A stretch of DNA of 64,000 nt from Desulforapulum autotrophicum. Lineage in GTDB: Bacteria > Desulfobacterota > Desulfobacteria > Desulfobacterales > Desulfolunaceae. The translations under genes were made by a program, and so were the position numbers. Under the pieces are notes generated by a model that had not been told where the DNA came from, searched no databases, and saw only the letters and a program-made list of their open reading frames with translations. The stretch lies in contig DYJE01000001.1 in assembly GCA_020723285.1 (NCBI GenBank), positions 613,294-677,293 of the forward strand, given 5' to 3'. Each line of letters opens with the position of its first letter. Position 1 is the first letter of the stretch. This document shows, in pieces, positions 3,061 through 63,188 of the stretch.

Positions 3061-3101
3061 AACCCAAAAAAAAGCCGCACATCACAACCATGTGCGGCTT
3101 T
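3061..3101 (-). terminator. Rho-independent terminator of the metVF operon
   Basis: A perfect 12-bp stem (3071-3082 with 3090-3101, core GCCGCACAT/ATGTGCGGC) and a 7-nt loop lie 23 bp past the metF stop. On the minus strand the hairpin is followed by a run of T (A-run at 3065-3073 on plus). It ends the cytochrome-metV-metF operon before the kinase genes. Confidence 0.88.
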
Positions 3102-3123
3102 CAAGTCGATTGGTTATGCCCCC

Positions 3124-4050
3124 CTATTCAACGACAGGCCTTGGCAACACTTTCGCAAGCTCAGCGATTTCAGGCACTTTGTGCTCCCATTCGATGGCCA
3201 TGAGATGAACACCTGCAACCCCTTTCATTTCCTTGAACTCTTCGATCTGTTCACAGGCGATCTTGATGCCTTCTTCGGCGACCTTTTTCTTGTCAACACC
3301 TTCGAGACGCTTGATGACTTCATCCGGGACTTCGATGCCGGGAACCTTGCTCTTCATGTATTTGGCCATACCGATGCTTTTCATCGGAGTGATGCCGGCC
3401 AGAATATACGTTTTTTCGGTCAACCCCATATCGTTGGCCATTTTGATGTATTCACGCATTTTTTTCATATTGTACACGCACTGGGTCTGGATGAAGTCAC
3501 ATCCGGCTTCGACTTTTTTCGCCAGCCTGTGGATTCGCCATTCAAAAGGATCGGCAAAGGGGTTGGCGGCTGCGCCGATAAAAAATTTGGGCGGATCGTG
3601 GATTTCCTCTCCGCTTAAGAATTTCCCTTCATCGCGCATTTTCTTGACCATGGCGACGAGCTGCATGGAATCGATATCAAAAACCCCTTTGGCATTGGGA
3701 TGATCGCCGAACTGCTGATGATCGCCGGTGAGACAGAGGATGTTGCGAAGACCATGGGCATAGGCCCCTAAGATATCCGCCTGCATGGCCAGACGGTTTC
3801 TGTCACGGCAGACCATCTGGTAGTTGGGTTCAAGCCCCAGTTCTTTCACGATAAGCGAAGCGGCCCAGCTCGACATTCTGACCATGGCGGTCTGGTTATC
3901 CGTGATATTGACCATATCGACATGACCGACAAGGTATTGAGCTTTTTCCTTGACATGTTCCACACTGGTACCTCTGGGAGGACCAAGTTCCCCTGTGAAT
4001 GCAAAATGACCGGCTCTCAAGATTTTTTCTAAGTTACTTCCTGCTTTCAT
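3124..4050 (-). CDS. metF: Methylenetetrahydrofolate reductase catalytic subunit MetF
   Basis: Interconverts 5,10-methylene-THF and 5-methyl-THF in the methyl branch of the acetyl-CoA pathway. It is about 308 residues, the usual size of a bacterial FAD-binding MetF TIM barrel. Family landmarks are the N-terminal FTGELGPPRG (catalytic Glu region), NITDN, LTGDH after a central strand, AAANPFADP, and DFIQTQCVYN near the C-terminal barrel face. I chose the ATG at 4050 because GAAGGAAAG lies just upstream; an in-frame ATG at 4068 sits inside that site. It is the last gene of an operon that also encodes MetV and three electron-transfer subunits, so its electron partner is probably not NAD(P)H alone. 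Confidence 0.92.
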   Translation of the reverse strand: MKAGSNLEKILRAGHFAFTGELGPPRGTSVEHVKEKAQYLVGHVDMVNITDNQTAMVRMSSWAASLIVKELGLEPNYQMVCRDRNRLAMQADILGAYAHGLRNILCLTGDHQQFGDHPNAKGVFDIDSMQLVAMVKKMRDEGKFLSGEEIHDPPKFFIGAAANPFADPFEWRIHRLAKKVEAGCDFIQTQCVYNMKKMREYIKMANDMGLTEKTYILAGITPMKSIGMAKYMKSKVPGIEVPDEVIKRLEGVDKKKVAEEGIKIACEQIEEFKEMKGVAGVHLMAIEWEHKVPEIAELAKVLPRPVVE

Positions 4051-4127
4051 ATCGATACTTTCCTTCATTGATTATAATGTGAGTATCAATAACAACGAAT
4101 GTTATTTCAATTGACGTCAGAGAAAAC

Positions 4128-4511
4128 CTATTCTCGATCAAACCTGGGATACACTCCCTGCTCCCGGCAAATGCTTCGGGCCAGAGCGATCATCTCCGGA
4201 ATATTGATTCCAAGAGGACAATAGCAGCGTGTGCACAGAGCGCAACGTTCCCACACATTGTCCCTGATTTCACCGAGAGTCACCTTGTCCACCATTCCTT
4301 TCTTCTTGTACAGCAACCCGATGGAATTGAGAAACTTGTACGAAGGCGTGTATTTGGGGTCCTTATCCCTCGCCATATATAAAAAACAGCTTTCAGCACA
4401 CAATGTACAGTGAGCGCAGGCTTTCAGCGAAAGCTTCATCTTGGTCTTATGCTCGTCAAGCCTTTCCTTGACACGCTCGGTGTCAACACCTGCCGTATTT
4501 ATTTTAGCCAT
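4128..4511 (-). CDS. HdrC-like dicluster [4Fe-4S] protein
   Basis: Small iron-sulfur protein (127 residues from the ATG at 4511, preceded by GGGAG; an ATG at 4517 overlaps that site). Two cysteine clusters are visible: CAHCTLCAESC (C-x2-C-x2-C-x3-C, about residue 32-42) and CALCTRCYCP (C-x2-C-x2-C-x1-C-P, about 90-98). The second is two residues shorter than the normal x3 spacing. This architecture matches HdrC or the ferredoxin part of membrane HdrDE/Tmc-type complexes. It sits between the cytochrome b gene and metF, so it probably wires MetVF to the membrane subunit. There is no signal peptide, so it acts on the cytoplasmic face. The partner assignment is inference. Confidence 0.85.
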   Translation of the reverse strand: MAKINTAGVDTERVKERLDEHKTKMKLSLKACAHCTLCAESCFLYMARDKDPKYTPSYKFLNSIGLLYKKKGMVDKVTLGEIRDNVWERCALCTRCYCPLGINIPEMIALARSICREQGVYPRFDRE

Positions 4512-4576
4512 TGGCATCTCCCGATATCTTTCATTAATTATTTAAGGTCATGAATAAAAATCATGATCTTTAACCG

Positions 4577-5251
4577 TTACCAGGTCCGATCACCCTTCCC
4601 GAGACTGTATTCGCTTTCGATCACAAACCGGAAGACGAAAAAGAAAACCATGTGAACGAATTTCGTGAAGGGCACTGCCATAAGCATCAGTTCTCCAGCA
4701 AGGATATGCAGAGAGATCACCAGCCGGTAGTGGTCCGCGAAAGTCTGATGGTACGCCAGATAACCCGTGATGAACGGAGCCGTTGCAAGAAAAAGAATGA
4801 AATAGTCATTCCAGTCCGTAATGGCCCTTACCCTTGCGACTAAAATCCGCCGCAGCAGAAAGAACAGTCCGCAGAAGAGAAAAATCACGGTCAACGTGTC
4901 CACAAAGGATTCGGAAAATGAAAATAGACTGATCCCAATGGCGTTCTTCAAAAGCATGTTGTGCGCCAGAAGAAACACGGGCGCGATGATCAGACAGAGG
5001 TGAAAAACCGTGGTGACGATGACCATGACAGGGTTGACACCGAAAACGGACAGACTGGCTCTTTTGATAAAATCCTGAACAGATCCGCCGGTTATTTTTT
5101 TCCTCGGCCTTGGATTGTAAATCACATGGGGATTCTTTTTCGTCAGATTAAAAAAACGATAAAACTGAAAAATCAACCCGAGAAAAAAAACGATGAAAGA
5201 AATCCAGGCAAGGGGGCCTCGAATGAAATCGAACAGTGCAGATGTCTCCAT
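4577..5251 (-). CDS. NarI/DsrM/TmcC-like membrane cytochrome b subunit
   Basis: Integral membrane protein of 224 residues with five likely transmembrane helices (about 12-34, 72-100, 115-135, 149-168, 178-210). Histidines H84 and H97 in helix 2 and H182 and H200 in helix 5 are placed as haem b ligands in the NarI family, so two haems b are plausible. This is the quinone- or cytochrome-linked anchor type found in Hdr-like and Tmc complexes. It lies between metV and the HdrC-like gene on the same strand. By context it would pass electrons between the cytoplasmic Fe-S subunit and either menaquinone or the periplasmic cytochrome c encoded first in the operon. Confidence 0.82.
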   Translation of the reverse strand: METSALFDFIRGPLAWISFIVFFLGLIFQFYRFFNLTKKNPHVIYNPRPRKKITGGSVQDFIKRASLSVFGVNPVMVIVTTVFHLCLIIAPVFLLAHNMLLKNAIGISLFSFSESFVDTLTVIFLFCGLFFLLRRILVARVRAITDWNDYFILFLATAPFITGYLAYHQTFADHYRLVISLHILAGELMLMAVPFTKFVHMVFFFVFRFVIESEYSLGKGDRTW

Positions 5252-5321
5252 ATAAAAATCTCTTTCTTATTCTAATATTTTGAATATTAAACACCAGAGC
5301 TATATGATTTTTCGTAACACA

Positions 5322-5993
5322 CTACCTGTAATATCTTTTTTCATACGGTTCCTGAACCGTTGTCCGCTGGACCTGGTTTTTCCACTGCATGGGCTCCTGG
5401 AGCTTCATGATATCGTTCAGCCGGTTCTGGCTCTTAAGTCGTTCATAGATATCGAGCCATGCACAGGGGATATCCTGACTGATTTCGCACTTACCCCTGT
5501 TCGTTCCGCCGCAAGGACCGTTGAACACGCCTTTCGCACACCGGGTCACCGGACAGATCCCGCCGGTATAAGCCAGAACGCATTCGCCGCAGGCACGGCA
5601 TTTTTCCTCGTACATGCCGATTTCTCTGTCAACACCAATGGACACGGTATTGACGGCCGGAAAAACGGGGACCGTGGGAAATCTTTCGGCCATCAGCTGG
5701 ACACCGGCACCGCAGGCCATGGATACAATACAGTCATAGTCTTTGACCTTTCCATCCAGTTCGATGAGAAACTGCATGTTGCACTGGCGTTCAACCGTGT
5801 ACGAACCCAGTTTCTTCGACTGTTTATCCGCCCTGAAAGCAACGTTCAACTCGGCGTTCAGCTCGTTGACTTCTCGCTGTCCACCGGCAAGACAAACGGA
5901 AGCGCATCCGCCACATCCCACTGTCAAAATTCTGCTGTAATCAGTAATGGAGTTTTTAATCTCTTCAACAGGTTTTCTTTTTGACTTTACCAC
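5322..5993 (-). CDS. metV: MetV, Fe-S/zinc partner subunit of methylenetetrahydrofolate reductase
   Basis: A 223-residue cysteine-rich protein matching MetV, the accessory subunit of acetogen-type MetVF. Landmarks are an N-terminal GCGGCASVC, a central VSMACGAGVQ, and a C-terminal cluster region with KCRACGEC, GGICPVTRC, NGPCGG and GKCE. The start is GTG at 5993, behind a strong AGGAGG. It lies 13 bp after the tetrahaem cytochrome stop and upstream of the cytochrome b, HdrC-like and metF genes, so all five are probably co-expressed. MetV is thought to carry Fe-S clusters that feed MetF. Here it would be the next link to the HdrC-like protein (inference). Confidence 0.9.
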   Translation of the reverse strand: MVKSKRKPVEEIKNSITDYSRILTVGCGGCASVCLAGGQREVNELNAELNVAFRADKQSKKLGSYTVERQCNMQFLIELDGKVKDYDCIVSMACGAGVQLMAERFPTVPVFPAVNTVSIGVDREIGMYEEKCRACGECVLAYTGGICPVTRCAKGVFNGPCGGTNRGKCEISQDIPCAWLDIYERLKSQNRLNDIMKLQEPMQWKNQVQRTTVQEPYEKRYYR

Positions 5994-6006
5994 GTTAATC
6001 CTCCTA

Positions 6007-6477
6007 TTATTTCTCTTCGCCGTTTGCGTTCTTATTCTTCATACTGTCGCGCTTGTGGCATTCGCCGCAAAGAACAGGCCCCTTTTTCTCTTTTTCATGG
6101 CATCCGATGCATTGTTTGTGGAACGCATCCATGGCGCTCATTTTCGAAATGGTTTTATTGCCATGGCAGGTCGCGCATTCGTAGCCGCTTGAATCTTCGG
6201 GGGCATTGACATCAAGGATCATGGTCTCTTCATATTCGGCTCCGCCCAGTTCACCATCGTCAAGAACATTCTCGCCGTTTTCATATTTGTGATGGCACTC
6301 TAGGCATCCGGATTCCCCCATTCCCATATGGTCCTCATGAGAAAATGAAACCTGAGGCCTTTGTTTCGCATTTTTTTTTGTCGCATCGTCCCCGGTGCAG
6401 ACCGCGGATAGTGTCAAAAGGGCGAAAAGCGTGAACATTCCGGTCAGTATTGCGGCTTTCTTCAATGAACTCATCAT
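6007..6477 (-). CDS. Periplasmic tetrahaem cytochrome c (c3-like)
   Basis: Exported 156-residue multihaem cytochrome. An N-terminal signal segment (about 1-27, hydrophobic FTLFALLTLSAVC) precedes four CxxCH sites: CLECH, CATCH, CIGCH and CGECH. Four other histidines (the two in SHEDH, the second His of CHH, and DAFHK) could be distal ligands, giving the bis-His set of a cytochrome c3 fold. The linker is acidic (ENVLDDGELGG), as in TmcA-like type II c3. It is the first gene of the metVF operon, 13 bp before metV. A periplasmic c3-type electron carrier paired with a cytochrome b fits a membrane-spanning electron path. AAGGAG lies 12 nt before the start; a second ATG at 6474 is equally possible. 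Confidence 0.88.
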   Translation of the reverse strand: MMSSLKKAAILTGMFTLFALLTLSAVCTGDDATKKNAKQRPQVSFSHEDHMGMGESGCLECHHKYENGENVLDDGELGGAEYEETMILDVNAPEDSSGYECATCHGNKTISKMSAMDAFHKQCIGCHEKEKKGPVLCGECHKRDSMKNKNANGEEK

Positions 6478-6618
6478 CTCTATGACTCACTCCTTAACGA
6501 CAGTTGATGGGCGGGACAGAAGGATACGACATGATAGAACCGATCGGCGATCAAACAACTTTCATGCAACGAATCACTGTTCCGTGTTTGAACCTGTTCC
6601 AAGTCTATTAAAGAAAGT

Positions 6619-6647
6619 TTCATATTTTATAAAGTCCGATATGTCAA
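6619..6647 (-). promoter_or_regulatory. Sigma70-type promoter of the cytochrome-metVF operon
   Basis: On the minus strand a TTGACA -35 (6642-6647) stands 17 bp from a TATGAA -10 (6619-6624). Transcription would begin near 6612, leaving a leader of about 135 nt before the cytochrome start at 6477. I see no riboswitch-like fold in that leader. Confidence 0.6.
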
Positions 6648-6715
6648 GCAACTATAGTGGCTCAAGGGTTTTTTTAACAAAACACGCGCGAAGTTCCACC
6701 ACCTGAGTCTTTCCA

Positions 6716-6744
6716 TTGACAGCCCCATCACCCTCTTTTATAAT
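6716..6744 (+). promoter_or_regulatory. Full-consensus sigma70 promoter
   Basis: TTGACA (6716-6721), exactly 17 bp, then TATAAT (6739-6744), matching the vegetative consensus at every position. It drives the small gene at 6822. The 344-bp gap 6478-6821 holds this promoter and, on the other strand, the promoter of the cytochrome operon. Near the expected start an inverted repeat AATGCCT/AGGCATT (6742-6764) could form a 5' hairpin. Confidence 0.82.
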
Positions 6745-6821
6745 GCCTGAAATGATAAGGCATTTAACAAATCAGTTTACACATATTCATATTTACATAC
6801 TTCATCAGCAAGGAGATCTTT

Positions 6822-7187
6822 ATGTACAAAGTTGACTCGGACATAGCAAAAAACAGGTTGTATATCACCTTGGAAGCCCTTGACACGAATGATGTCAAGC
6901 CCATCGTTTCTGATCTGAACAGCAACATTTCTCGCCTTGCTCCGGGCTTCACATGCCTTGTCGATATCCGTACCATGAAATTCGACCCTCAGACAAAAGG
7001 TTCGGAATACGTTGAAATCATTCAGGGTGCTCTGGCCGATTCAGGAATGAGCAACGTGGTTCGTGTGATCAACAAAGAAGACTCGAACTATCATCTGAGC
7101 ATGGATGAACTGAGCGTATCTTTAGGTTACAAGGCTGTCCCCGCGTACTCCATCGAAGAAGCTGAAAGAATTCTAGATCAGAAATAA
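6822..7187 (+). CDS. Small STAS/SpoIIAA-like protein of unknown function
   Basis: A 121-residue soluble acidic protein with an ideal AAGGAG eight bases before the ATG. The alternating beta/alpha pattern (RLYITLEAL, GFTCLVDIRTMKF, NVVRVIN, and the C-terminal helix IEEAERILDQK) resembles small STAS/SpoIIAA-like folds. I do not recognise a named family with certainty. No phosphoacceptor DS motif is obvious, so an anti-anti-sigma role is not supported. It is monocistronic between divergent and convergent neighbours, behind a full-consensus promoter, so it is probably abundant. The confidence covers it being a real gene; function is unknown. Confidence 0.8.
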   Translation: MYKVDSDIAKNRLYITLEALDTNDVKPIVSDLNSNISRLAPGFTCLVDIRTMKFDPQTKGSEYVEIIQGALADSGMSNVVRVINKEDSNYHLSMDELSVSLGYKAVPAYSIEEAERILDQK

Positions 7188-7995: not shown

Positions 7996-9098
7996 TTCAC
8001 ACCCAACGCCCGTTTATACAACCTTTTGATATCCGCAATTCCCGGAGCGGGTTTCGTATTTACAACGCTTTTCACTGTCAGGGTTTTTTGAGAAAACATC
8101 TCCAGTTCCGATTCAGTCAGAGAATCGTTCCAGGGAATCAAATTTTCCAGAACCCGGCCCAGATCCTCGACATTCCCAAAAGACATGGCGTCCAGAGCCC
8201 TCAGGACATTCTCGGGATAATGGGTGCGGATGTAGCGCATGTATTCGGTAATGAGAAGGCCGTTGGCTTTACCATGATCGATATTCCTGTGGTATGTCAG
8301 AGCATACCCCATGGCATGAACCACGGTGGTTCCGGTCTGGGCGATGGCCATTCCCGCAAGCATGGACGCGAAAAGAAGTCTCTCCCTTACCGTGTATGAA
8401 ACAGGCCGGGCATGATCTATCTCCATAAGACACGGCCCCAAAAGCCGAAGGGCTTCAAGGGTGATCAGGGTGCTCATGGCGTTCGCCCGCACAGAAAGAA
8501 AGCTCTCCAAAGCATGGGACAAAGCGTCGATGGCCGTATTCACTGTTACATCAAAAGGCAGCATCTCTGTATACGACGGATCCAGAAACGCCGCTTTGGG
8601 ATAAAGCGATTCGTGGGAAAGATTTTTTTTTGTTTCATCTTTCGTGTCGGTCAATATCGAATACGGTGTCACTTCGCTTCCGGTTCCGGCGGTGGTAGGA
8701 ACAGCGATAATGGGAAGCGGATCACGATAGGGGCCTTTAAAAAGAGATGCGTCATCAAGGTCCTGAACAGCGAGAAGCGCCACGGCTTTGGCTGCGTCCA
8801 TGGGAGAGCCCCCGCCGATCCCTATGATAAAATCCGCCTTGAAATCCTTTGCTTCCGAAGCCGCGATCCGTATGTTGGCGACGGTGGGGTTGGGCATCAC
8901 GCCATTGTATATGCGATAGGGTATCGAGAGCATCGACAGAGCCTCCTCGGTATCTGCCTGAGCCCCGCTTTTCAAAGCTGATGTTTTTCCTGTAACGATG
9001 AAAGCCCTATTCCCGTGTTTTCCAAACTCCGCCGCCTGATCTCTCAGGCTGTTTTTACCGAAGATGACCCGGGTTGGCATATGGTATGATAAATTCAT
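7992..9098 (-). CDS. Iron-containing alcohol dehydrogenase
   Basis: A 368-residue group III (Fe-dependent) alcohol dehydrogenase. An N-terminal NAD-binding part carries GIGGGSPMDAAKAVA (about 96-110) and AVPTTAGTGSEVTP (about 137-150). The C-terminal helical part supplies the metal ligands, with D and H residues in INTAIDALSHALESF and HAMGYALTYHRNIDHGKANG. It would oxidise short alcohols or reduce aldehydes with NAD(P); the substrate cannot be fixed. AAGGAGAT lies just before the ATG. The gene is translationally coupled to the RluA-family gene downstream, a pairing without obvious functional logic. Confidence 0.9.
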   Translation of the reverse strand: MNLSYHMPTRVIFGKNSLRDQAAEFGKHGNRAFIVTGKTSALKSGAQADTEEALSMLSIPYRIYNGVMPNPTVANIRIAASEAKDFKADFIIGIGGGSPMDAAKAVALLAVQDLDDASLFKGPYRDPLPIIAVPTTAGTGSEVTPYSILTDTKDETKKNLSHESLYPKAAFLDPSYTEMLPFDVTVNTAIDALSHALESFLSVRANAMSTLITLEALRLLGPCLMEIDHARPVSYTVRERLLFASMLAGMAIAQTGTTVVHAMGYALTYHRNIDHGKANGLLITEYMRYIRTHYPENVLRALDAMSFGNVEDLGRVLENLIPWNDSLTESELEMFSQKTLTVKSVVNTKPAPGIADIKRLYKRALGVK

Positions 9099-12741: not shown

Positions 12742-12910
12742 CTATCGACCTGTGTGTCCGGTTTGACTGAAGAATAATCCAAAAAGAAAAAGAATGGATG
12801 TTAAATGATCCCGATATATCCTGAACGTACAAACCCCCTGTATATTTTGATTTCACGGAATATTATTAAAAGGCGTATGCTCTGTCAAGAACAAAGGCAT
12901 TCCAAATATT

Positions 12911-12942
12911 TAAAGTATTTAATACTTAAACCTTTATTGACA
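12911..12942 (+). promoter_or_regulatory. Candidate operator and -35 element upstream of nadE
   Basis: An AT-rich inverted repeat AAGTATT-T-AATACTT (12913-12927) lies ten bases before a TTGACA (12937-12942). The matching -10 is poor (TAACCT at 17 bp). The palindrome is a plausible site for the NrtR-like regulator encoded downstream. The rest of the 270-bp gap 12742-13011 shows no gene. Confidence 0.4.
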
Positions 12943-13011
12943 AATGTTTCGTCTTTTTTTAACCTTGAAACTATCAAAAATCTGTTACCCTTTCATTCCA
13001 AGGAGAAAGCC

Positions 13012-13827
13012 ATGAATATCGAAGCGGTCATCGAAATAATCAAACAGGAAATCCGTGAACATGTGGATACGGCCGTTGTGGGCCTGAGCGGCGGGGCGGA
13101 CTCCTTTCTTGTCATGCTGCTTTCTGCCGAAGCCCTGGGAAAAAATAACGTGTATGCCTTGAGCATGCCCTATTCCGATCTGGACACACGGACGTTCAAC
13201 AGCTTGAGCACCATGTACGCCGAGCATATCGGCGTTCATCACCATGTGATAGGCATCGGAGACATTGCCCAGGCCATCAATCAGGCCGTTTCGGGAGCTG
13301 TGTCAACGCCCGGCGAGAACGGTATCTCCGCCCTCAATGCAGGAAATGCAAGATCCCGGTCAAGAATGTGCGTTCTTTATGGTTTCGCCCATCACCTCAA
13401 TGACCGGCTGAAAAACAGGGTCCGGGTCATGGGCACTGGAAACCTCTCGGAGGATTTCATCGGATATGACACCAAAGGCGGTGACGCCCTGGCTGACATT
13501 TTCCCCATCGGTCAGTTGTTCAAATCCGAGGTCTATAAAATCCTTGAGCACTTTCGCGACAAGGGGTTGATCACCGAGTCGATGATCAACCGGGTCCCCT
13601 CCGCCGGACTCTGGGAAAACCAGACCGACGAAGACGAACTGGGTCACAGCTACGATGCCATGGAACCGGCCATCCGTTTCATCCTTCAGAGCGAAGGCCG
13701 ATTCCAAGAATCCTCGTTGACGGACATCCAGCGCTTTGTCTGGCATCGTCACCTCACCAACAAACACAAGCACGAAGCCCCCTACGTGGTCACACTGAGG
13801 GACTCCAGAGGCAACCTGATCGTATGA
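13012..13827 (+). CDS. nadE: NAD synthetase, ammonia-type
   Basis: Amidates deamido-NAD to NAD+, the last step of NAD synthesis, through an adenylylated intermediate. The 271-residue protein is a single N-type PP-loop domain without the glutamine amidohydrolase domain, so it would use ammonia. Motifs are the PP-loop GLSGGADSF (about 24-32), NAGNARSRSRM, GTGNLSEDFIGYDTKGGD, and the C-terminal PSAGLWENQTDEDELG. The frame is open upstream to 12805, but AAGGAG just before the ATG at 13012 fixes the start. The downstream NrtR-like gene on the same strand suggests local control of NAD synthesis. Confidence 0.93.
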   Translation: MNIEAVIEIIKQEIREHVDTAVVGLSGGADSFLVMLLSAEALGKNNVYALSMPYSDLDTRTFNSLSTMYAEHIGVHHHVIGIGDIAQAINQAVSGAVSTPGENGISALNAGNARSRSRMCVLYGFAHHLNDRLKNRVRVMGTGNLSEDFIGYDTKGGDALADIFPIGQLFKSEVYKILEHFRDKGLITESMINRVPSAGLWENQTDEDELGHSYDAMEPAIRFILQSEGRFQESSLTDIQRFVWHRHLTNKHKHEAPYVVTLRDSRGNLIV

Positions 13828-13843
13828 AGTATCATGAAACGCC

Positions 13844-14007
13844 CATGAAAGATGGCGTCGTAAAAAGTCCCATATGCGGCGTTATAGTGTTTGGCCAGAC
13901 ACTCGACATACGTTCATGTATGCCGTAGCAAGTGGCCAAACACTATGCCTTGCCTCTGGGCCTTTTTCCATAGCCATCGGGCGACTTTTTACGAGTCCAT
14001 CATGAAA
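13844..14007. mobile_element. MITE-like nested inverted repeat
   Basis: About 150 bp bounded by imperfect terminal inverted repeats (13851-13869 and 13983-14001, core TCGTAAAAAGTC; 17 of 19 match). An internal perfect 13-bp repeat ATAGTGTTTGGCC (13884-13896) pairs with 13934-13946, and CATAC/GTATG lies inside that. A direct repeat CATGAAA flanks the element (13844-13850 and 14001-14007), consistent with a target-site duplication. There is no open frame, so it would need a transposase in trans. Confidence 0.65.
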
Positions 14008-14014
14008 GGATGAA

Positions 14015-15175
14015 ATGATCAAAATCGGTATAGACGTTCACGGCGTCGCAGACGCCAATCCCCATTTTTTTTCGGCACTGTCACGAATCCTCGTGGAAAA
14101 CGGCCATGAAGTCCACATTCTCACCGGTGCCGAGCACACCCCGGAACTGGAGCATGAAATCAGACACATTCTGGGGTTGTCGTTCACTCACTTTTTTTCA
14201 ACCACGAGCCATCATAAAAAAGCGGGGACCGTCATCACCTATATCGACGGCAACCCTTACATGGACAACAAAATCTGGAACAGGGCCAAAGCCGAATACT
14301 GCCGGAACCACGGAATACACCTTCATATCGACGACTCGGATGTCTACGGCAAACACTTTGAAACCCCCTATGCGAAATACGAATTCAACCATACCGGAGA
14401 ATCGTCGTTTCCAACCCGTACCCTGCCTGAATGCCTGGATGACTGTTCCGGTCAAAGCGGAAACCTTGAGCCAGTCAAAGAAAGGAGTTGCAACAACCCG
14501 TCGGTTTCTGTGGATATCGCCATCTGCTCCTTGATCGACGGTTCCCTGAACGTCCTGCTCATCAAACGGAAATTCGCTCCGTTCAAAGGACACTGGGCTT
14601 TGCCCGGCGGCTTCATCCACTCTGAAGACAGCGAGCATCTCGACGCGGCCGCGGCAAGAAAAATCAGAGAAAAAACCGGGCTTTCCCATCTTTATATCAA
14701 ACAGCTCAAAACATACGGCGATGTGGACCGTGACCCGAGAACCCGTGTCATCACAACCGCTTATTACTCACTTGTAAACAAGTCCCTCATGGGTCTTGAA
14801 ACCCTGGCACCCGATGAAACAGCAGAAGATACCCGCTGGTTTCCGCTGGCCCAGGTTGAAAAAGACTCGATATTCAGAAAAGAAAAACTCGCCTTTGACC
14901 ATGCGCAGATTGTGAACGATCTGAAAAAAAGGCTTCAGGGGAAAATTTCACATGATCCCATTGCCTTCGAGCTTCTGGATACAACGTTCACCTGGGGCGA
15001 TCTTCGTTCCGTGTACGAGGCTGTTCTGTGCAAAAAACTGGACCCCGCCAATTTCAAGAAAAAGATCAGAGCCCAGTATAAAATCAAGGAGCTGAAAGCG
15101 AAAAAAAACGGTGCTTCAGCCGGACGCCCCCCCACACACCTCCGTTTTGAAGGAGTCAAAGATCAGTACACCTGA
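14015..15175 (+). CDS. HAD-like domain fused to NrtR-type Nudix/winged-helix regulator
   Basis: A 386-residue two-part protein. Residues 1-125 resemble a small HAD-like phosphatase fold (IGIDVHGVADANPHF, then HILTGAEHT and the late HIDDSDVYGKHF), but the usual DxD is DVH. Residues 165-300 are a Nudix domain (LLIKRKFAPFKGHWALPGGF), and the rest (about 305-375) is a winged-helix segment ending in a basic tail. This Nudix plus wHTH order is that of NrtR, the NAD-biosynthesis repressor that senses ADP-ribose or NAD. The Nudix box is degenerate (RKIREKTGL where RE-x2-EE-x-G is expected), so hydrolysis is probably lost. Its place after nadE supports an NAD role. The start is fixed by AAAGGA, which lies in the MITE right flank. 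Confidence 0.8.
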   Translation: MIKIGIDVHGVADANPHFFSALSRILVENGHEVHILTGAEHTPELEHEIRHILGLSFTHFFSTTSHHKKAGTVITYIDGNPYMDNKIWNRAKAEYCRNHGIHLHIDDSDVYGKHFETPYAKYEFNHTGESSFPTRTLPECLDDCSGQSGNLEPVKERSCNNPSVSVDIAICSLIDGSLNVLLIKRKFAPFKGHWALPGGFIHSEDSEHLDAAAARKIREKTGLSHLYIKQLKTYGDVDRDPRTRVITTAYYSLVNKSLMGLETLAPDETAEDTRWFPLAQVEKDSIFRKEKLAFDHAQIVNDLKKRLQGKISHDPIAFELLDTTFTWGDLRSVYEAVLCKKLDPANFKKKIRAQYKIKELKAKKNGASAGRPPTHLRFEGVKDQYT

Positions 15176-38798: not shown

Positions 38799-39018
38799 TC
38801 AAGCTAAAAGCAAACCACCCGAAAGGATGGGACGCAAAGCCACTGGCCTAAATCTTTATAACATTAAAAAATTCGGATTCATTTGAAGTAGGGACAGAAA
38901 AAAAAGAAACGGTTTTTAAAGAATAAAAATCGGATTCTCAATAAAAGCAAAATCCCGAACCATAAAGAAATCATTCCGAAAAGAGTATAAAGACACGGTA
39001 GCAGGGCTGCCTTAGCTT
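38799..39018 (+). promoter_or_regulatory. GEMM-I riboswitch, probable cGAMP-type, with long P3 insertion
   Basis: Aptamer of the GEMM-I class. P1 pairs AAGCTAA (38801-38807) with TTAGCTT (39012-39018). P2 is closed by a GAAA tetraloop (38821-38824) and flanked by GCAAACC (38810-38816) and GGGACGCAAAGCC (38829-38841). GGCCTAA then GGTAGCAGGGCTGCC (38997-39011) supply the tetraloop receptor side. P3 pairs TCTTTATA (38853-38860) with TATAAAGA (38986-38993) and encloses about 125 nt of AT-rich insertion, far longer than usual. The base before GCAAACC is A where c-di-GMP aptamers have G (G20 in Vc2 numbering). In this family A20 is linked to 3',3'-cGAMP binding, reported in Geobacter relatives. 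The ligand call is from memory of the consensus. Confidence 0.82.
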
Positions 39019-56892: not shown

Positions 56893-58209
56893 ATGATGCT
56901 ACGCCGTTCAGCATTCCTTGCCGTTTTTTTTCTCATGATGGTCTCGTCCGCTTTCCCGGAGCCATCGGCTGAACAGACCCTTGACAGCCTGATCGCCGAA
57001 GCGCTGGAAAACAATCCGTCACTCCAGGCGGCCCGGTATCAGAAGCTTTCAACAGAGACCCGGATCAGCCAGGCCAAGGCCTGGGAAGCGCCCCAGATCG
57101 GCGTTGAATTCCCTCTCACGCCCACGTCCTCCTTTCCGAATCCATTCAAGGATTCCATGGAAACCGATTACTTCATACAACAGAAAATCCCTTTCCCCGG
57201 AAAGACGGGCATCATGGCCATGGCTGAGCAAAGCGGTTCGGACATGGCGGCCCATAACGTCAAGGCCCTTGAAAACGCTGTCATCAAAGACCTGAAAAAA
57301 ACATACTACGATCTCTGTCTCCTTCAAAGAAAGATCATCCTCAACCGGGAGTCCCAGGATCTCATGCGCAGGTTTTCCGAACTCGCCCGGAAACAATACG
57401 AACTGGGCAAGGGAACCCAGGCCGATGTGCTCCGGGCTCAGACCGAACTGTCCATGCTCATCAACGAAGGAAACACGATGAGGCAGGAAAAAAAGACCAT
57501 GGAAACCATGATCGGCGCCCTGACCGGACGGCCGAAGGATCAGCCAGGAGGGCCTTTCACGGATCTTGATGAATCGTTCATTCCGGCGGATCTGACGGCG
57601 ATCCCCGCCGCACCCCATGAAAAAAGGCCCGAACTTCAGGCCATGGCGGAAAACATCCGGATGAAAGACGCCGAACACGCCCTGGCGAAAAGGGATTACT
57701 ACCCGGACATCATGCTCCGGCTGATGTACAAACGCATGGAAGAAGGCCCCGACGACTATTTTTCGACCATGATCAGCGTGGATCTTCCCTTTCTTTTCAT
57801 GTCCGGCGGGAAAATCAGGGGGCGGGTGGAAGAAAGCCGTTTGAATGTCCTCAAGGCCAGGGAAGATTTGAGGGCCATGGAAAACATGGCGCGTTACCAG
57901 GTCGAGGAAGCTGTGAACACTGCGGAGAACCACCGAAGGACCATGGAATTCTACAGAACCACGGTCATTCCCCAGGCCGTCCAGGCCCGGGAATCCATGG
58001 GTTCAGCATACGCCACGGGGAAAGCCGAGCTGTTCGAACTCATCGAATCCCTGCGAACGGAACTCGGGGCAAGGGAAAGCTATTACAGCTCTTTGGCCGA
58101 ATGGCTGAAGGCTTTGGCGGACCTGGAACAGGCCGAAGGACGTGACAGTGGCATCCACGCAAGAAAAGACCCCGCCCCACCGGAACTTCAAGAAAGGAAC
58201 ACACCATGA
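56893..58209 (+). CDS. TolC/CusC-family outer-membrane efflux protein
   Basis: Outer-membrane channel of the tripartite heavy-metal pump. The 438-residue protein has a signal peptide (about 1-22, LAVFFLMMVSSAFPEPSA) and two OEP repeats: LIAEALENNPSLQAARYQKLSTETRISQAKAWEAPQIGVEF and, in the second half, AENIRMKDAEHALAKRDYYPDIMLRLMYKRM. Long helical stretches (about 100-200 and 300-400) form the coiled-coil tunnel. Its stop overlaps the start of the adaptor gene by four bases, so the three pump genes are one operon. No lipobox is evident. Confidence 0.9.
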   Translation: MMLRRSAFLAVFFLMMVSSAFPEPSAEQTLDSLIAEALENNPSLQAARYQKLSTETRISQAKAWEAPQIGVEFPLTPTSSFPNPFKDSMETDYFIQQKIPFPGKTGIMAMAEQSGSDMAAHNVKALENAVIKDLKKTYYDLCLLQRKIILNRESQDLMRRFSELARKQYELGKGTQADVLRAQTELSMLINEGNTMRQEKKTMETMIGALTGRPKDQPGGPFTDLDESFIPADLTAIPAAPHEKRPELQAMAENIRMKDAEHALAKRDYYPDIMLRLMYKRMEEGPDDYFSTMISVDLPFLFMSGGKIRGRVEESRLNVLKAREDLRAMENMARYQVEEAVNTAENHRRTMEFYRTTVIPQAVQARESMGSAYATGKAELFELIESLRTELGARESYYSSLAEWLKALADLEQAEGRDSGIHARKDPAPPELQERNTP

Positions 58210-60023
58210 ACAAAACCATCGTCTCATCCATTCTGTCCGTCCTGATCGGTTTCTCGGCAGGCTATTTCGTTTTCAAACAGCCCGAAGCCCATACCGTGAG
58301 CCATAAACCGGCACAAGAGCGAAAAATCCTGTATTACCAGGACCCCATGAACCCTGAAGTCACGTCGCACACCCCAAAAAAGGCCGCTGACGGGATGGAT
58401 TTCGTCCCGGTTTACGAAAAAGAAAAACCTGCGGATGGCGGCACCGAAATCGCTTATTACGTGGACCCCATGCATCCCTGGTACACATCCGAAAAACCGG
58501 GGAAAGCCCCGGACTGCGGCATGGACCTTGTGCCTGTCTACAAAAACGACGAAAAGGCCCAAGGGGTGAAAATCGACCCCTCCATGATTCAGAGCATGGG
58601 AGTGACCCTTGAAAAAGCGGAAAAAAGGACGCTCTCAAAAACCATCCGGGCATCGGGCCTGGTGGAAATCGACGAATCGCGCCTTTACACCGTGACCACC
58701 AAATTCATGGGCTGGGTGGACAGGCTCAAAGTCAACCGAACCGGCCAGGCTGTCAGTGAAAACCAGAGCCTTTTCACCTTGTACAGCCCGGACTTGGTCA
58801 GCGCCCAGGACGAGTACCTCCTGGCCCTTAAATACAGGAACAATCTGTCTGAAAGCGGGATCGACGAAATCAGAAACCAGGGCGACGGAATGATTGAAAG
58901 CGTGGTCAGACGCCTTTCTTACTGGGACATCGGCAAACCGGAGATCCTGGCCCTTGAGAAACGAGGAAAACCCGTGAAGAACATCGAGATAAGGTCACCG
59001 TACCGTGGGGTGGTCATGGATAAAATGATCACGGAAGGCGATAAAATCGAGGCCGGAATGCCCCTTTACCGGATCGCGGACCTTTCCACGGTTTGGGTCA
59101 CGGCGGACGTGTATCCCCAGGATCTTCCCTGGATCGGGAAAGGCGGCGCAGCGGACATGTCATTTCCGGCCCTCCCCGACCGGACCTTCAAAGGCAACGT
59201 GGAGTTCCTCTACCCCACCATGAACGGGGAATCCCGGACTGCGAAAATCCGCATCGTGATGAAGAACGATAAAAACGTTTCCCTCAAACCCGGCATGATC
59301 GGGGCCGTTTCCATTGCTTCCGCCGTTTCACGGGCTGAGGTGACCGTGCCCGAACAGGCGGTGATCAAATCCGGTTTAAGGGATATCGCCGTGGTGGCCC
59401 TGGGCGACGGATATTTCGCACCGAGGGAAATCCGCACCGGGGTTTCCGAAGGCGGGTACATTCAGGTTCTGGACGGCATCCGTGAAGGTGAAGACATCGT
59501 CACCTCCTCCCAGTTCCTCATCGATTCGGAAAGCAACTTAAGGGCCGCCATCGCCGGAATGGGGAAAAAACCAACAGCGGACAGTCCTCCGGCCCAAAGC
59601 ACCAAAGCCCCCCCATCCTCTCTGGCCGGCGGAACCCTCGTTGCGGATAATGCCGCCATTAAAAACAACGCCGCGTCAAAACCCCTCATGGCGTCAGCCA
59701 AAACCCGGTACACCTGTGACATGCACCCTGAAATCATCAAAGACAAACCCGGAAACTGCCCCATCTGTGGCATGCACCTCGTGCCTGTCAAAGCGGAGAA
59801 AAAGGACACGAAAAAAATCCAGTACACCTGCGAGATGCACCCCGAAGTCATCAAGGACAAACCCGGAAGCTGCCCCGTCTGCGGCATGCACCTCGTCCCC
59901 GTCAAAACGGAGAAAAAGGACACGAAAAAAATCCAGTACACCTGCGAGATGCATCCTGAAGTCATCAAGGACAAACCCGGAAGCTGCCCCATCTGCGGCA
60001 TGTTTCTGACTCCTAAAAAATGA
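58206..60023 (+). CDS. CusB-like RND periplasmic adaptor with five heavy-metal-binding domains
   Basis: Membrane fusion protein of a copper/silver efflux pump, 605 residues. An N-terminal anchor (about 4-20) is followed by two HMBD modules: YYQDPMNPEV (about 39-66, cysteine lost) and YYVDPMHPWYT...CGMDLVPVY (about 80-108). The adaptor core (about 115-445) has lipoyl and barrel domains (GWVDRLKVNRTGQAVSENQSLFTLYSPDLVSAQDEYL, IRSPYRGVVMDKMITEGDKI). The C-terminus carries three near-identical 38-residue HMBD modules (YTC-x-MHPE...CP-x-CGMHLVPV). These modules bind Cu(I) through Met, Cys and His. It sits between tolC-like and cusA-like genes. Confidence 0.92.
   Translation: MNKTIVSSILSVLIGFSAGYFVFKQPEAHTVSHKPAQERKILYYQDPMNPEVTSHTPKKAADGMDFVPVYEKEKPADGGTEIAYYVDPMHPWYTSEKPGKAPDCGMDLVPVYKNDEKAQGVKIDPSMIQSMGVTLEKAEKRTLSKTIRASGLVEIDESRLYTVTTKFMGWVDRLKVNRTGQAVSENQSLFTLYSPDLVSAQDEYLLALKYRNNLSESGIDEIRNQGDGMIESVVRRLSYWDIGKPEILALEKRGKPVKNIEIRSPYRGVVMDKMITEGDKIEAGMPLYRIADLSTVWVTADVYPQDLPWIGKGGAADMSFPALPDRTFKGNVEFLYPTMNGESRTAKIRIVMKNDKNVSLKPGMIGAVSIASAVSRAEVTVPEQAVIKSGLRDIAVVALGDGYFAPREIRTGVSEGGYIQVLDGIREGEDIVTSSQFLIDSESNLRAAIAGMGKKPTADSPPAQSTKAPPSSLAGGTLVADNAAIKNNAASKPLMASAKTRYTCDMHPEIIKDKPGNCPICGMHLVPVKAEKKDTKKIQYTCEMHPEVIKDKPGSCPVCGMHLVPVKTEKKDTKKIQYTCEMHPEVIKDKPGSCPICGMFLTPKK
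59709..60023 (+). repeat. Three tandem 114-bp coding repeats
   Basis: Units start at 59709, 59823 and 59937 (third truncated by the stop). Units 2 and 3 differ at only a few bases over 87 nt. Each encodes one heavy-metal-binding domain plus a Lys-rich linker. The similarity shows recent duplication within the gene. Confidence 0.92.
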
Positions 60024-60068
60024 TCGCCGGACGCAAATCGAATATTGAATGGAAAAAAGAGACACCCT

Positions 60069-63000
60069 ATGCTGAAAAAGATCATCGAAACATCCATCGA
60101 CAACACGTTCATGGTCATTCTGGCCACGGTGTTTTTCGCGGCGATGGGCCTTTACTCCCTTATCACCATCCCCATTGACGCCATACCCGACCTCTCCGAC
60201 GCCCAGGTGATCATCTACACCGAATACCAGGGGCAGTCCCCGAAGACCGTGGAAGATCAGGTCACCTTCCCCCTGACCACCGCCATGGTGTCGGTTCCCC
60301 ATTCCAAGGTGGTCCGGGGGTACTCGTTTTTCGGTTACTCACTGGTCTACATCATCTTCGAAGACGGAACGGACATTTACTGGGCGCGGAGCCGCGTGCT
60401 GGAGTATCTCAACTCCGCCACACGCCAGCTTCCCAAAGGCGTGACCCCCACCCTGGGTCCTGACGCCACCGGCGTGGGCTGGGTGTTCGAATACACCCTT
60501 TCATCGCCCCGGCATTCCCTCCAGGACTTGCGTTCCATCCAGGACTGGTACCTGAAATACGGCCTGTCAGCGGTGGACGGCGTTTCGGAAGTGGCCAGCA
60601 TCGGCGGATTCGTGAAACAATACCAGATCACCGTTGACCCGGTGAAACTCCAGGCCTACAACATCCCCCTTTCCATGATCGAAATGGCGGTTTCGGACTC
60701 CAACAGCGACGCCGGAGGCGAAATCATCGAAATGGGCGAAACCGAATTCATGATCCGGGGCCTGGGCTACATCAAATCCATAGCGGACATCGAAAACATC
60801 CCCCTCATGGTGGACAAAAGCCGGGGGACGCCCGTGTTCATAAGGGATGTGGCCCACGTTTCCATGGGGCCTTTGATGCGGCGGGGCATCGCCGAACTGA
60901 ATGGTGAAGGTGAAACCGTGGGTGGCATTGTGGTGATGCGGTATGGAGAAAACGCCCTCAGCGTCATCGAAAACGTGAAAAAAAAGCTGGAAGAACTGAA
61001 ACCTGGCCTCCCCAAGGGGGTGTCCATCGAGACCGCATACGACAGGTCCAGCCTGATCACACGGGCCATCGACACCCTCAAGCATAAGCTGCTGGAAGAA
61101 ATCCTGGTGGTGGCTCTCGTGTGCATCATCTTCCTCTTGCACGCCCGGAGCGCCCTGGTGGCGGTGTTCACGCTCCCCACCGCCATCCTCGCGTCCTTCA
61201 TCATCATGAAGGCTCAAGGGATCAACGCCAACATCATGTCCCTGGGGGGCATCGCCATCGCCATCGGGGCCATGGTGGACGCGGCCATCATCATGATCGA
61301 AAACGCCCACAAGCACATCGAGCATGAAAATGAAAAGCCGATCCACGAACGGCGTAAACTCAAGGACATCATCAAGGAATCCGCACTGGAAGTGGGGCCC
61401 GCCCTGTTCTATTCCCTCCTGGTGATCACCGTATCCTTCATCCCGGTGTTTACCCTGGAAGAGCAGGAAGGACGTCTGTTCAAGCCCCTGGCCTTCACCA
61501 AAACCTACGCCATGGCCGCCGCAGCCGTTCTGTCCATCACCGTGGTTCCCGTGCTCATGCGGTTCGCCCTCAAGGGCAACATCCTTCCCGAGCACCGGAA
61601 CCCCGTGAACCGGTTTCTCATTGCCGTTTACCACCCCGTGGTGGACGGCGTACTGAAATTCCCGAAAACGATCATAGTCTTGGCCCTGATCCTCCTCGGA
61701 ATCACAACCTACCCGTTCATGAAAACCGGCTCGGAATTCATGCCGCCCCTCTACGAAGGCGACCTCCTCTACATGCCCACCACCATGCCGGGCATTTCCG
61801 TCACCAAAGCAAGAGAACTCCTTCAGCAGACCGACCGGATGATCCGCACGTTCCCTGAAGTCCATCATGTGTTCGGCAAGGCCGGGCGGGCTGAAACAGC
61901 CACGGACCCGGCGGGCCTTGACATGCTTGAAACCACCATCATGCTGAAACCCGAGGACCAGTGGCGGCCCGGCATGACCGTGGACAAACTCATCGCCGAA
62001 CTGGACCGGACCGTCCGGGTTCCCGGCCTCACCAATTCCTGGACCATGCCCATCAAAACACGGGTGGACATGCTGAGCACCGGCATCAAAACGCCGGTGG
62101 GCGTGAAAATCTCAGGACCTGATCTTGAAACCCTTGAAAACCTCGGCAAACAGGTGGAAGAGGTCCTTAGAACCGTTCCCGGAACCCTCAGTGCTTTCGC
62201 TGAACGGGCCGTGGGTGGAAACTACCTGGACATCGCCATCGACCGGGTTGAAGCGGCCCGGTTCGGCCTCACCGTGGGCAAGGTCCAGATGGTCATCCGA
62301 AGCGCCATGGGCGGCATGAGCATCACCCAGACCGTGGAAGGCCTTGAAAGGTATCCCGTGAACCTCAGGTACAGCCGTGAACTCCGGGATACCCTCGACG
62401 CCCTGAAGCGTGTTCTCGTCCCTGCGCCCACCGGCCAGCATGTTCCCCTGGGGCAGATCGCCACCTTCACAACCGCCAAAGGCCCCATGGTGATCCGAAG
62501 CGAAGACGCGAGGCCCAATTCCTGGGTCTTCGTGGACATCCACAGCATGGACATCGGCACCTACATCAAGGGCGCCCGGAAAGCCGTTACGGAAAACGTC
62601 GCCATGCCAAAGGGTTATCACCTGATCTGGAGCGGCCAGTTCGAATACATGCAAAGGGCCGAAAAGCGGCTGATGCTCGTGATCCCCATGACCCTTTTCA
62701 TCATCTTTGTCATCATCTACCTGAACACACGCTCCCTTATCAAAGTGGGCATCGTGTTCATGGCCGTTCCCTTTTCCCTGATCGGCGCGTTCTGGACGCT
62801 CTATTTCCTGGATTACCACCTGAGTATCGCCGTGTGGGTGGGCATCATCGCCCTGGCGGGTCTTGATGCGGAAACAGGCGTTGTCATGCTTCTTTACCTT
62901 GACATGGCGTATGAAAGCATGAAAAGGAAGGGACTGATTCAAGGCGTTGCCGATCTTAAACAGGCCATTCACCACGGTGCGGTTCAGCGTGTGCGTCCCA

Positions 63001-63188
63001 AGATCATGACCGCCTCGGTGATCATCGCCGGACTTCTTCCCATCATGTGGAGTCACGGGGCCGGGGCTGACGTGATGAAGCGTATCGCCGCACCCATGCT
63101 GGGCGGGGTGATCTCTTCCGTGGCCATGGAGCTTTTCGTCTATCCTGCGGTTTACCTCCTGTGGAAGAGGAAACGTTCAGGCGGATGA
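60069..63188 (+). CDS. CusA/CzcA-family heavy-metal RND efflux pump, monovalent-cation type
   Basis: Inner-membrane proton antiporter of about 1039 residues, the full length of the HME-RND family. It has TM1 (about 12-32), a large periplasmic loop with RGYSFFGYSLVYIIFEDGTDIYWARSRVLE, TM helices from about 335, the core motif LGGIAIAIGAMVDAAIIMIENAHKHIE (about 393-419; DAAI is the CusA-like form), the second loop (about 550-860) and final helices. GDLLYMPTTMPGIS and GLDAETGVVMLLYLDMAYE are family marks. I start at the ATG at 60069 rather than TTG at 60045. It pumps Cu+ or Ag+ out of the periplasm with the two upstream proteins. Confidence 0.93.
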   Translation: MLKKIIETSIDNTFMVILATVFFAAMGLYSLITIPIDAIPDLSDAQVIIYTEYQGQSPKTVEDQVTFPLTTAMVSVPHSKVVRGYSFFGYSLVYIIFEDGTDIYWARSRVLEYLNSATRQLPKGVTPTLGPDATGVGWVFEYTLSSPRHSLQDLRSIQDWYLKYGLSAVDGVSEVASIGGFVKQYQITVDPVKLQAYNIPLSMIEMAVSDSNSDAGGEIIEMGETEFMIRGLGYIKSIADIENIPLMVDKSRGTPVFIRDVAHVSMGPLMRRGIAELNGEGETVGGIVVMRYGENALSVIENVKKKLEELKPGLPKGVSIETAYDRSSLITRAIDTLKHKLLEEILVVALVCIIFLLHARSALVAVFTLPTAILASFIIMKAQGINANIMSLGGIAIAIGAMVDAAIIMIENAHKHIEHENEKPIHERRKLKDIIKESALEVGPALFYSLLVITVSFIPVFTLEEQEGRLFKPLAFTKTYAMAAAAVLSITVVPVLMRFALKGNILPEHRNPVNRFLIAVYHPVVDGVLKFPKTIIVLALILLGITTYPFMKTGSEFMPPLYEGDLLYMPTTMPGISVTKARELLQQTDRMIRTFPEVHHVFGKAGRAETATDPAGLDMLETTIMLKPEDQWRPGMTVDKLIAELDRTVRVPGLTNSWTMPIKTRVDMLSTGIKTPVGVKISGPDLETLENLGKQVEEVLRTVPGTLSAFAERAVGGNYLDIAIDRVEAARFGLTVGKVQMVIRSAMGGMSITQTVEGLERYPVNLRYSRELRDTLDALKRVLVPAPTGQHVPLGQIATFTTAKGPMVIRSEDARPNSWVFVDIHSMDIGTYIKGARKAVTENVAMPKGYHLIWSGQFEYMQRAEKRLMLVIPMTLFIIFVIIYLNTRSLIKVGIVFMAVPFSLIGAFWTLYFLDYHLSIAVWVGIIALAGLDAETGVVMLLYLDMAYESMKRKGLIQGVADLKQAIHHGAVQRVRPKIMTASVIIAGLLPIMWSHGAGADVMKRIAAPMLGGVISSVAMELFVYPAVYLLWKRKRSGG

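Follow-up and report, generated by a model that had tools for sequence, protein, structure and literature searches.

The 64,000-nucleotide stretch of Desulforapulum autotrophicum DNA analyzed here (the whole of it is called the window) carries on its minus strand a five-gene operon in which metV and metF, the genes of a methylene-tetrahydrofolate (methylene-THF) reductase (MTHFR), are interspersed with genes for a multiheme cytochrome c, a membrane cytochrome b and an HdrC-like iron-sulfur protein. The locus raises the question with which partner such a reductase exchanges electrons. The acceptor for the electrons of methyl-THF (about -200 mV) is a long-open point for acetate oxidizers, for the acetogen model presented in PMC9430772 no membrane-integral partner of MetVF could be pinned down, and the final feeder of the abundant Qrc in complete-oxidizing Desulfobacteraceae is left open in the accounts of two studies (PMC5109826, PMC11887813). 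In our view the five genes, hereafter the module, likely encode one membrane-bound, reversible methylene-THF reductase that exchanges electrons with periplasmic multiheme cytochromes. If this is true, one widespread gene set would answer both the acceptor and the Qrc-donor question, and could explain the methyl-carbon respiration of acetate.

The preliminary description of this DNA had listed five same-strand genes in the order cytochrome c, metV, NarI-like cytochrome b, HdrC-like protein and metF, and all five open reading frames (ORFs) were confirmed; the intergenic gaps are 13, 70, 59 and 59 bases in the order of transcription. Differing neighbors of MetVF in close relatives, named in that description as evidence against its reading, did not occur, as the same five genes were found in the same order in 8 of 8 genomes of the window's family (the window's own included). 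For a wider view, the cytochrome b and the HdrC-like protein each served as a query against 242 genomes of the window's order, and module-derived profiles were run over the stretches around the matches. The module was present in 52 of the 242 genomes (22 families). Short HdrC-like frames, defined as those of 88-215 amino acids scoring at least 139 bits, were found in 51 genomes, the 52nd (G105) having a fusion; seven weaker HdrC matches were frames of 276-554 amino acids of the TmcB/HmcF kind. The neighbors of the HdrC-like gene in the 52 genomes were MetV (51), cytochrome b (51), cytochrome c (47) and metF (27), and the missing MetV and cytochrome b both belong to a genome (G084, locus L192) whose contig begins inside the HdrC gene. 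The gene set is kept much more broadly than the exact gene order: the window's gene order occurred in 17 of the 52 genomes, cytb-hdrC-cytc-metV with no metF in view in 15, and metF-cytb-hdrC-cytc-metV in seven, next to one genome with a divergent metF and smaller classes (at least six gene orders overall).

Among 395 genomes sampled across the phylum, those of the order counted in, there were 32 matches, 28 of them outside the order (8 families), and in all 28 the HdrC-like gene lies among at least three other module genes; no cytochrome b was found by profile in G343 (L262), and in G491 (L243) the stretch ends before MetV. The module families sampled in the phylum number 30 in all, with MetVF genes beside a membrane cytochrome and nearly always a likely exported multiheme cytochrome as well. 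Of 80 loci from a scan for MetF, 18 had the module with cytochrome b, short HdrC and MetV, and 60 did not show it; at the other two (L021, L028), HdrC and MetF lie where the contig ends. Since 8 of 8 family genomes keep the order and the module genes co-occur in 52 of 242, the grouping is not due to chance, and the earlier view of MetVF, the HdrC-like protein and cytochrome b as parts of one unit was borne out within the order and in the 28 genomes beyond it.

Regarding the individual proteins, the locus has the make-up of a MetVF-type methylene-THF reductase, with an MTHFR-domain MetF and, three genes upstream of it in the same operon and on the same strand, a DUF5981 MetV. MetF matched solved structures of MTHFR by sequence (1v93 and 3apt among them, E about 6e-11) and is taken as the putative catalytic flavoprotein subunit. 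MetV is predicted to link MetF to the membrane part as an Fe-S adaptor. No solved structure was found by sequence for MetV, cytochrome b or the HdrC-like protein at the thresholds used; an AlphaFold model of MetV reached a predicted local distance difference test score (pLDDT) of 67.6, matched nothing in the PDB at an E of 0.001 or below, and was not used. The cytochrome c matched Pfam Cytochrom_CIII (3.6e-11), and its top NCBIfam match was TmcA, with 84 bits at a cut-off of 114. Its eight heme cysteines, the four CXXCH histidines and His 47, 50, 63 and 120 were the same in all 43 aligned rows, that of the window among them. An N-terminal hydrophobic stretch was judged by eye, and the protein, a relative of TmcA, is likely exported to the periplasm. 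The cytochrome b has the NarI fold, with PDB 9ojn as a fold match, and scored below the NCBIfam cut-offs for both TmcC (179.5 bits, cut-off 240) and HmcE (162 bits, cut-off 275). Its membrane histidines 84, 97, 182 and 200 were invariant in 51 of 51 rows, and it is predicted to hold two b hemes. (Rows shorter than 75% of the window protein and identical rows were excluded from the alignments of both cytochromes.)

The HdrC-like protein matched HmcF with 103.7 bits over profile positions 33-154 of 457 (cut-off 750) and TmcB with 83.1 bits over positions 30-137 of 430, and no CCG domain match was obtained in the profile scans. Its second cluster motif reads CxxCxxCxCP in 51 of the 52 module genomes (G059 is without it), versus CxxCxxCxxxC in 11 of 11 Tmc/Hmc-type proteins examined. 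It is a two-cluster Fe-S protein, the counterpart of the N-terminal part of TmcB/HmcF minus the CCG half. As to other known partners of MetVF, profile scans of the five operon proteins gave no RnfC family, and none of HdrA, HdrB and MvhD was found among seven proteins scanned (the five and those of the neighboring genes at 1449-2924 and 6822-7187).

Two of the five proteins form lineages of their own. In the cytochrome b tree, 50 of 50 module rows lie on one side and 21 Tmc/Hmc-type rows, so labeled by the lengths of neighboring ORFs, on the other, with a Shimodaira-Hasegawa-like approximate likelihood ratio (SH-aLRT) support of 100; the tree is unrooted and leaves the choice between Tmc and Hmc as the nearer sister undecided. 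In the MetV tree, 52 module MetV and that of G105 are set apart from 78 other MetV (SH-aLRT 96), and several fixed differences accompany the split, among them residue 3, which is K in 48 of 48 module rows and 0 of 58 others, residue 72 with N versus D, and residue 122 with D versus N (48/48 and 58/58 in both of the latter cases). Positions 29 and 151 are isoform-specific as well. The trees are quick searches with SH-aLRT support only, built from the matched part of stop-to-stop frames; rows below 150 amino acids (cytochrome b, MetV) or 250 amino acids (MetF), low-scoring sequences and identical sequences were dropped. MetF was rejected as a marker of the module, as its tree mixes module and non-module copies (12 label changes); two long branches (L002, L004) meet in this tree. 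In 25 module genomes no metF is in view near the module; a search of 15 of these turned up a MetF of 78-83% identity elsewhere in 14, which is a true separation in complete genomes and in drafts merely another contig. Desulfonema magnum has a non-module MetV-MetF pair of the Hdr type, adjoined by HdrA-like, MvhD-type FlpD, HdrC-like and CCG proteins, and its MetF is 79% identical to that of the window. The simplest reading is that MetF may be a shared catalytic subunit, with the MetV isoform as a swappable adaptor that sets the electron partner.

Three further loci with MetF were seen in the window's genome. The second MetVF (L154:3593-10412, contig C76) lies in an array hdrC-hdrB-hdrA-mvhD-like-metV-metF of the Hdr type, in which the HdrB-like protein is a CCG protein and the MvhD-like frame (8282-8806, an assignment made by eye) contains a TGA codon in frame, likely for selenocysteine. 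The third (L153:3680-11518, contig C67) is accompanied by a gene resembling glutamate synthase (PF01645) and by an FlpD protein of the MvhD type, and the fourth MetF (L155:8311-10937, contig C3) is distant (43% identity) and occurs with a 313-codon frame that has the MetV domain at its C-terminal end.

Two variations of the gene set bear on the membrane part. In G105, cytochrome b (residues 5-231) and HdrC (residues 246-364) are fused in one 365-amino-acid ORF beside metV and cytochrome c, with NCBIfam matches to TmcC and HmcF. Nine stretches belong to the sub-type cytb-hdrC-metV-metF; in eight of them a cytochrome with 16 or 17 hemes comes after metF in place of the tetraheme one, and the ninth reaches the contig end; the one such cytochrome that was scanned scored above the HmcA cut-off (415 vs 400). 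Because the kind of cytochrome varies and its presence is kept, heme exchange with the periplasm appears to be part of the function. As exceptions, 5 of the 52 module genomes show no cytochrome c, and two of them still show none in wider stretches. As candidate predictors of the module, the Wood-Ljungdahl link and QrcA were rejected: AcsB occurs in 42 of 52 module and 140 of 190 other genomes (no enrichment; three of the ten module genomes without it, G157, G186 and G205, are at least 90% complete), and QrcA is near-universal (50 of 52 vs 176 of 190).

In complete oxidizers such as Desulfococcus multivorans, electrons would pass from MetF to MetV, the HdrC-like protein, cytochrome b, cytochrome c, Qrc and finally menaquinone; where methyl-THF is made, the reverse route from periplasmic donors inward would be taken, possibly in formate-using, Desulfoluna-type relatives. 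For a common MetF, the MetV isoform would decide between a cytoplasmic HdrABC-MvhD system and the membrane path. Complex formation, heme binding and the electron path with its direction are inferred from sequence, and genes alone do not give direction. The methylene/methyl-THF couple is given as -200 mV in PMC9430772, type I cytochrome c3 as -325 to -170 mV in PMC7031245, and menaquinone-7 as -74 mV (literature value); therefore the step from methyl-THF to periplasmic hemes would be near equilibrium and that to menaquinone downhill. Electron flow from inside to outside would alone build no proton motive force and would use membrane potential, so that Qrc or quinone chemistry would be needed downstream. 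Because Qrc is described as electrogenic (in the accounts of PMC11887813 and PMC13059093), an outward conduit plus Qrc could be about energetically neutral.

Published data are available for hosts of the module. In D. multivorans (G017) the module locus (L131, 2.377-2.379 Mbp) coincides with the published tmcA2B2C2 cluster at 2.38 Mbp. PMC5109826 reports that, with all 17 substrates, the membrane fraction contained most subunits of both Tmc complexes (exceptions TmcA1 and TmcB2), and that the genome has no periplasmic hydrogenases or formate dehydrogenases, for which reason a role of Tmc was hard to see for its authors. The TmcB2 of that paper (50 kDa, undetected) does not fit the 127-amino-acid gene at L131. 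The same account describes Qrc as abundant, with a different function suggested and type I cytochrome c3 as the likely partner, and a 2025 study of six Desulfobacteraceae strains states that, for Qrc, hydrogenase data "implicate a different electron donor" (PMC11887813). The window's gene order is carried by D. oleovorans Hxd3 (G076, so assigned here). The module thus occurs in strains that can be cultivated, and for one of these a membrane proteome has been published.

An inward path, in which periplasmic formate or H2 reduces cytochrome c and drives methylene-THF reduction for CO2 fixation or methyl synthesis, is possible though on the unlikely side. For canonical Tmc an inward electron flow is assumed (as stated in PMC5109826), and a membrane chain from H2 to methylene-THF is reported for Sporomusa ovata in PMC9430772. 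For Desulfoluna, the named members of the window's family, PMC7031245 tables three strains, all users of formate that do not use acetate; strain DBB converts lactate to acetate, which accumulates and is not degraded further, and type I cytochrome c3 was, according to that source, not identified in Desulfoluna genomes. Because cultured Desulfoluna do not use acetate, acetate oxidation is not supported for the window's lineage. A purely inward path is at odds with D. multivorans, which has the module, is without periplasmic hydrogenase or formate dehydrogenase and oxidizes acetyl-CoA completely (so described in PMC5109826). A reversible exchange with periplasmic cytochromes remains the preferred reading.

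It is rather improbable that the module is a methyl-THF:menaquinone oxidoreductase with an accessory cytochrome c. The cytochrome b would then reduce menaquinone directly, as do NarI/HdrD proteins of the EtfD type; a multiheme cytochrome c is, however, retained in 47 of 52 genomes, and the other sub-type has its 16- or 17-heme cytochrome. Very unlikely, too, is a second Tmc complex that merely lies beside metV and serves DsrC or other partners, with a soluble MetVF. The redox genes are indeed Tmc/Hmc homologues, and the D. multivorans authors filed the 2.38 Mbp cluster as Tmc2 (PMC5109826), but the CCG half, predicted to interact with DsrC in the account of PMC10553843, is missing from the module, the association with MetV persists in 51 of 52 genomes despite many rearrangements, and the module copies group in a clade of their own for cytochrome b as well as for MetV. 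Chance neighbors or mis-annotated folate genes with no functional link can be dismissed, being refuted by the distribution over 30 sampled families and by the cytochrome b-HdrC fusion.

The features of the operon are summarized in Table 1. The terminator named in the preliminary description was recovered as a stem with a T tail 3' of metF. The promoter claimed there fared less well: the sole upstream minus-strand candidate, at 6680-6651 (TTGTTA-18-TATAGT), is weak, and promoter-like sites in the scanned region showed no excess (9 vs 6.9 +/- 2.5 in shuffles). On the plus strand, a sigma-70 consensus promoter (12 of 12) was seen at 6716-6744 before a divergent ORF of 121 amino acids (6822-7187), for which no Pfam or NCBIfam match was obtained at E 0.001. 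Elsewhere in the window, a cyclic di-GMP-I riboswitch (38799-38884, plus strand, 37.7 bits vs a cut-off of 35), a likely heavy-metal efflux pair of the resistance-nodulation-division type (58206-63188; a pump of the AcrB family together with a membrane-fusion protein that has domains for heavy-metal binding) and an NAD synthase adjoining a protein with Nudix and NrtR-type winged-helix domains (12805-15175) were observed.

Table 1. The operon and its flanking signals, with positions in the window.
Feature	Position	Strand	Description
Cytochrome c (tetraheme)	6477-6007	-	156 amino acids, four CXXCH, first gene of the operon
MetV	5993-5322	-	223 amino acids, GTG start, PF12225 123.3 bits (cut-off 23), 3.2e-36
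Cytochrome b	5251-4577	-	224 amino acids, NarI-like, TmcC/HmcE-like
HdrC-like protein	4517-4128	-	129 amino acids, PF13183/PF13534
MetF	4068-3124	-	314 amino acids, PF02219 139 bits (cut-off 24), 2.6e-40
Intrinsic terminator	3102-3070	-	13-pair stem, 7-base loop, T tail, directly after metF
Intergenic region upstream of operon	6478-6821		Promoter expected; 9-of-12 match only

Among known systems, Tmc (TmcABCD, Desulfovibrio) shares a homologous cytochrome c, cytochrome b and HdrC half, and the module sub-type cytb-hdrC-cytc parallels the succession of cytochrome b, long HdrC/CCG protein and small cytochrome c in Tmc-type loci. Unlike Tmc, the module is without the CCG half of TmcB, has an altered second cluster motif and has MetV and MetF added, and all three of its redox proteins fall below the NCBIfam cut-offs. 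It is a relative of the Tmc complex and not Tmc itself, and resembles a Tmc-type conduit minus the CCG half plus MetV/MetF. Hmc (HmcABCDEF) has HmcE- and HmcF-like parts in common with the module, and some module relatives have an HmcA-family hexadecaheme cytochrome; unlike Hmc, the module has no full-length HmcF and carries MetVF within the operon. In EtfD-type NarI-HdrD oxidoreductases, for whose likeness to the module the fold match 9ojn of the cytochrome b also speaks, a NarI-like cytochrome b is likewise joined to an HdrC-like part, whereas the electron donor is electron-transfer flavoprotein and the CCG domains are retained.

Regarding methylene-THF reductases, the Hdr type (MetVF-HdrABC-MvhD; Moorella thermoacetica, Sporomusa ovata) shares the MetV and MetF core and a proposed membrane link (PMC9430772). 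It links via soluble HdrA, HdrB, HdrC and MvhD, its membrane-integral partner being the one that "could not be identified" in that source, whereas the module operon has cytochrome b and cytochrome c and no HdrA, HdrB or MvhD. The metF-HdrABC described for Seep-SRB1g in PMC10553843 is of this Hdr type. MetVF-RnfC2 of Acetobacterium woodii likewise has the MetVF core and an extra electron-input subunit, according to PMC9430772; this partner is the soluble, NADH-linked RnfC2, in contrast to the membrane cytochromes of the module. Among the matches listed in the open-access literature, the scope of which leaves subscription papers and supplements aside, no earlier report of a MetVF operon with cytochrome b, HdrC and cytochrome c was recognized. 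Four MTHFR classes are listed in PMC9430772 (MetF, MetVF, MetVF-RnfC2 and MetVF-HdrABC-MvhD), and the module, by its gene content, is none of them; it is a new combination of known parts with a wide distribution. On a broader proposal our judgment is evenly divided, namely that the module is a fifth class, in which a Tmc-type conduit minus its disulfide-reducing half, together with a dedicated MetV, would let the Wood-Ljungdahl methyl branch feed periplasmic cytochromes and would be the donor so far missing for the constitutive Qrc of sulfate reducers that have no periplasmic hydrogenases, the exchange of MetV being a general switch that re-routes one MetF. If true, this would be a modular principle, with MetF as the constant and MetV as the adaptor.

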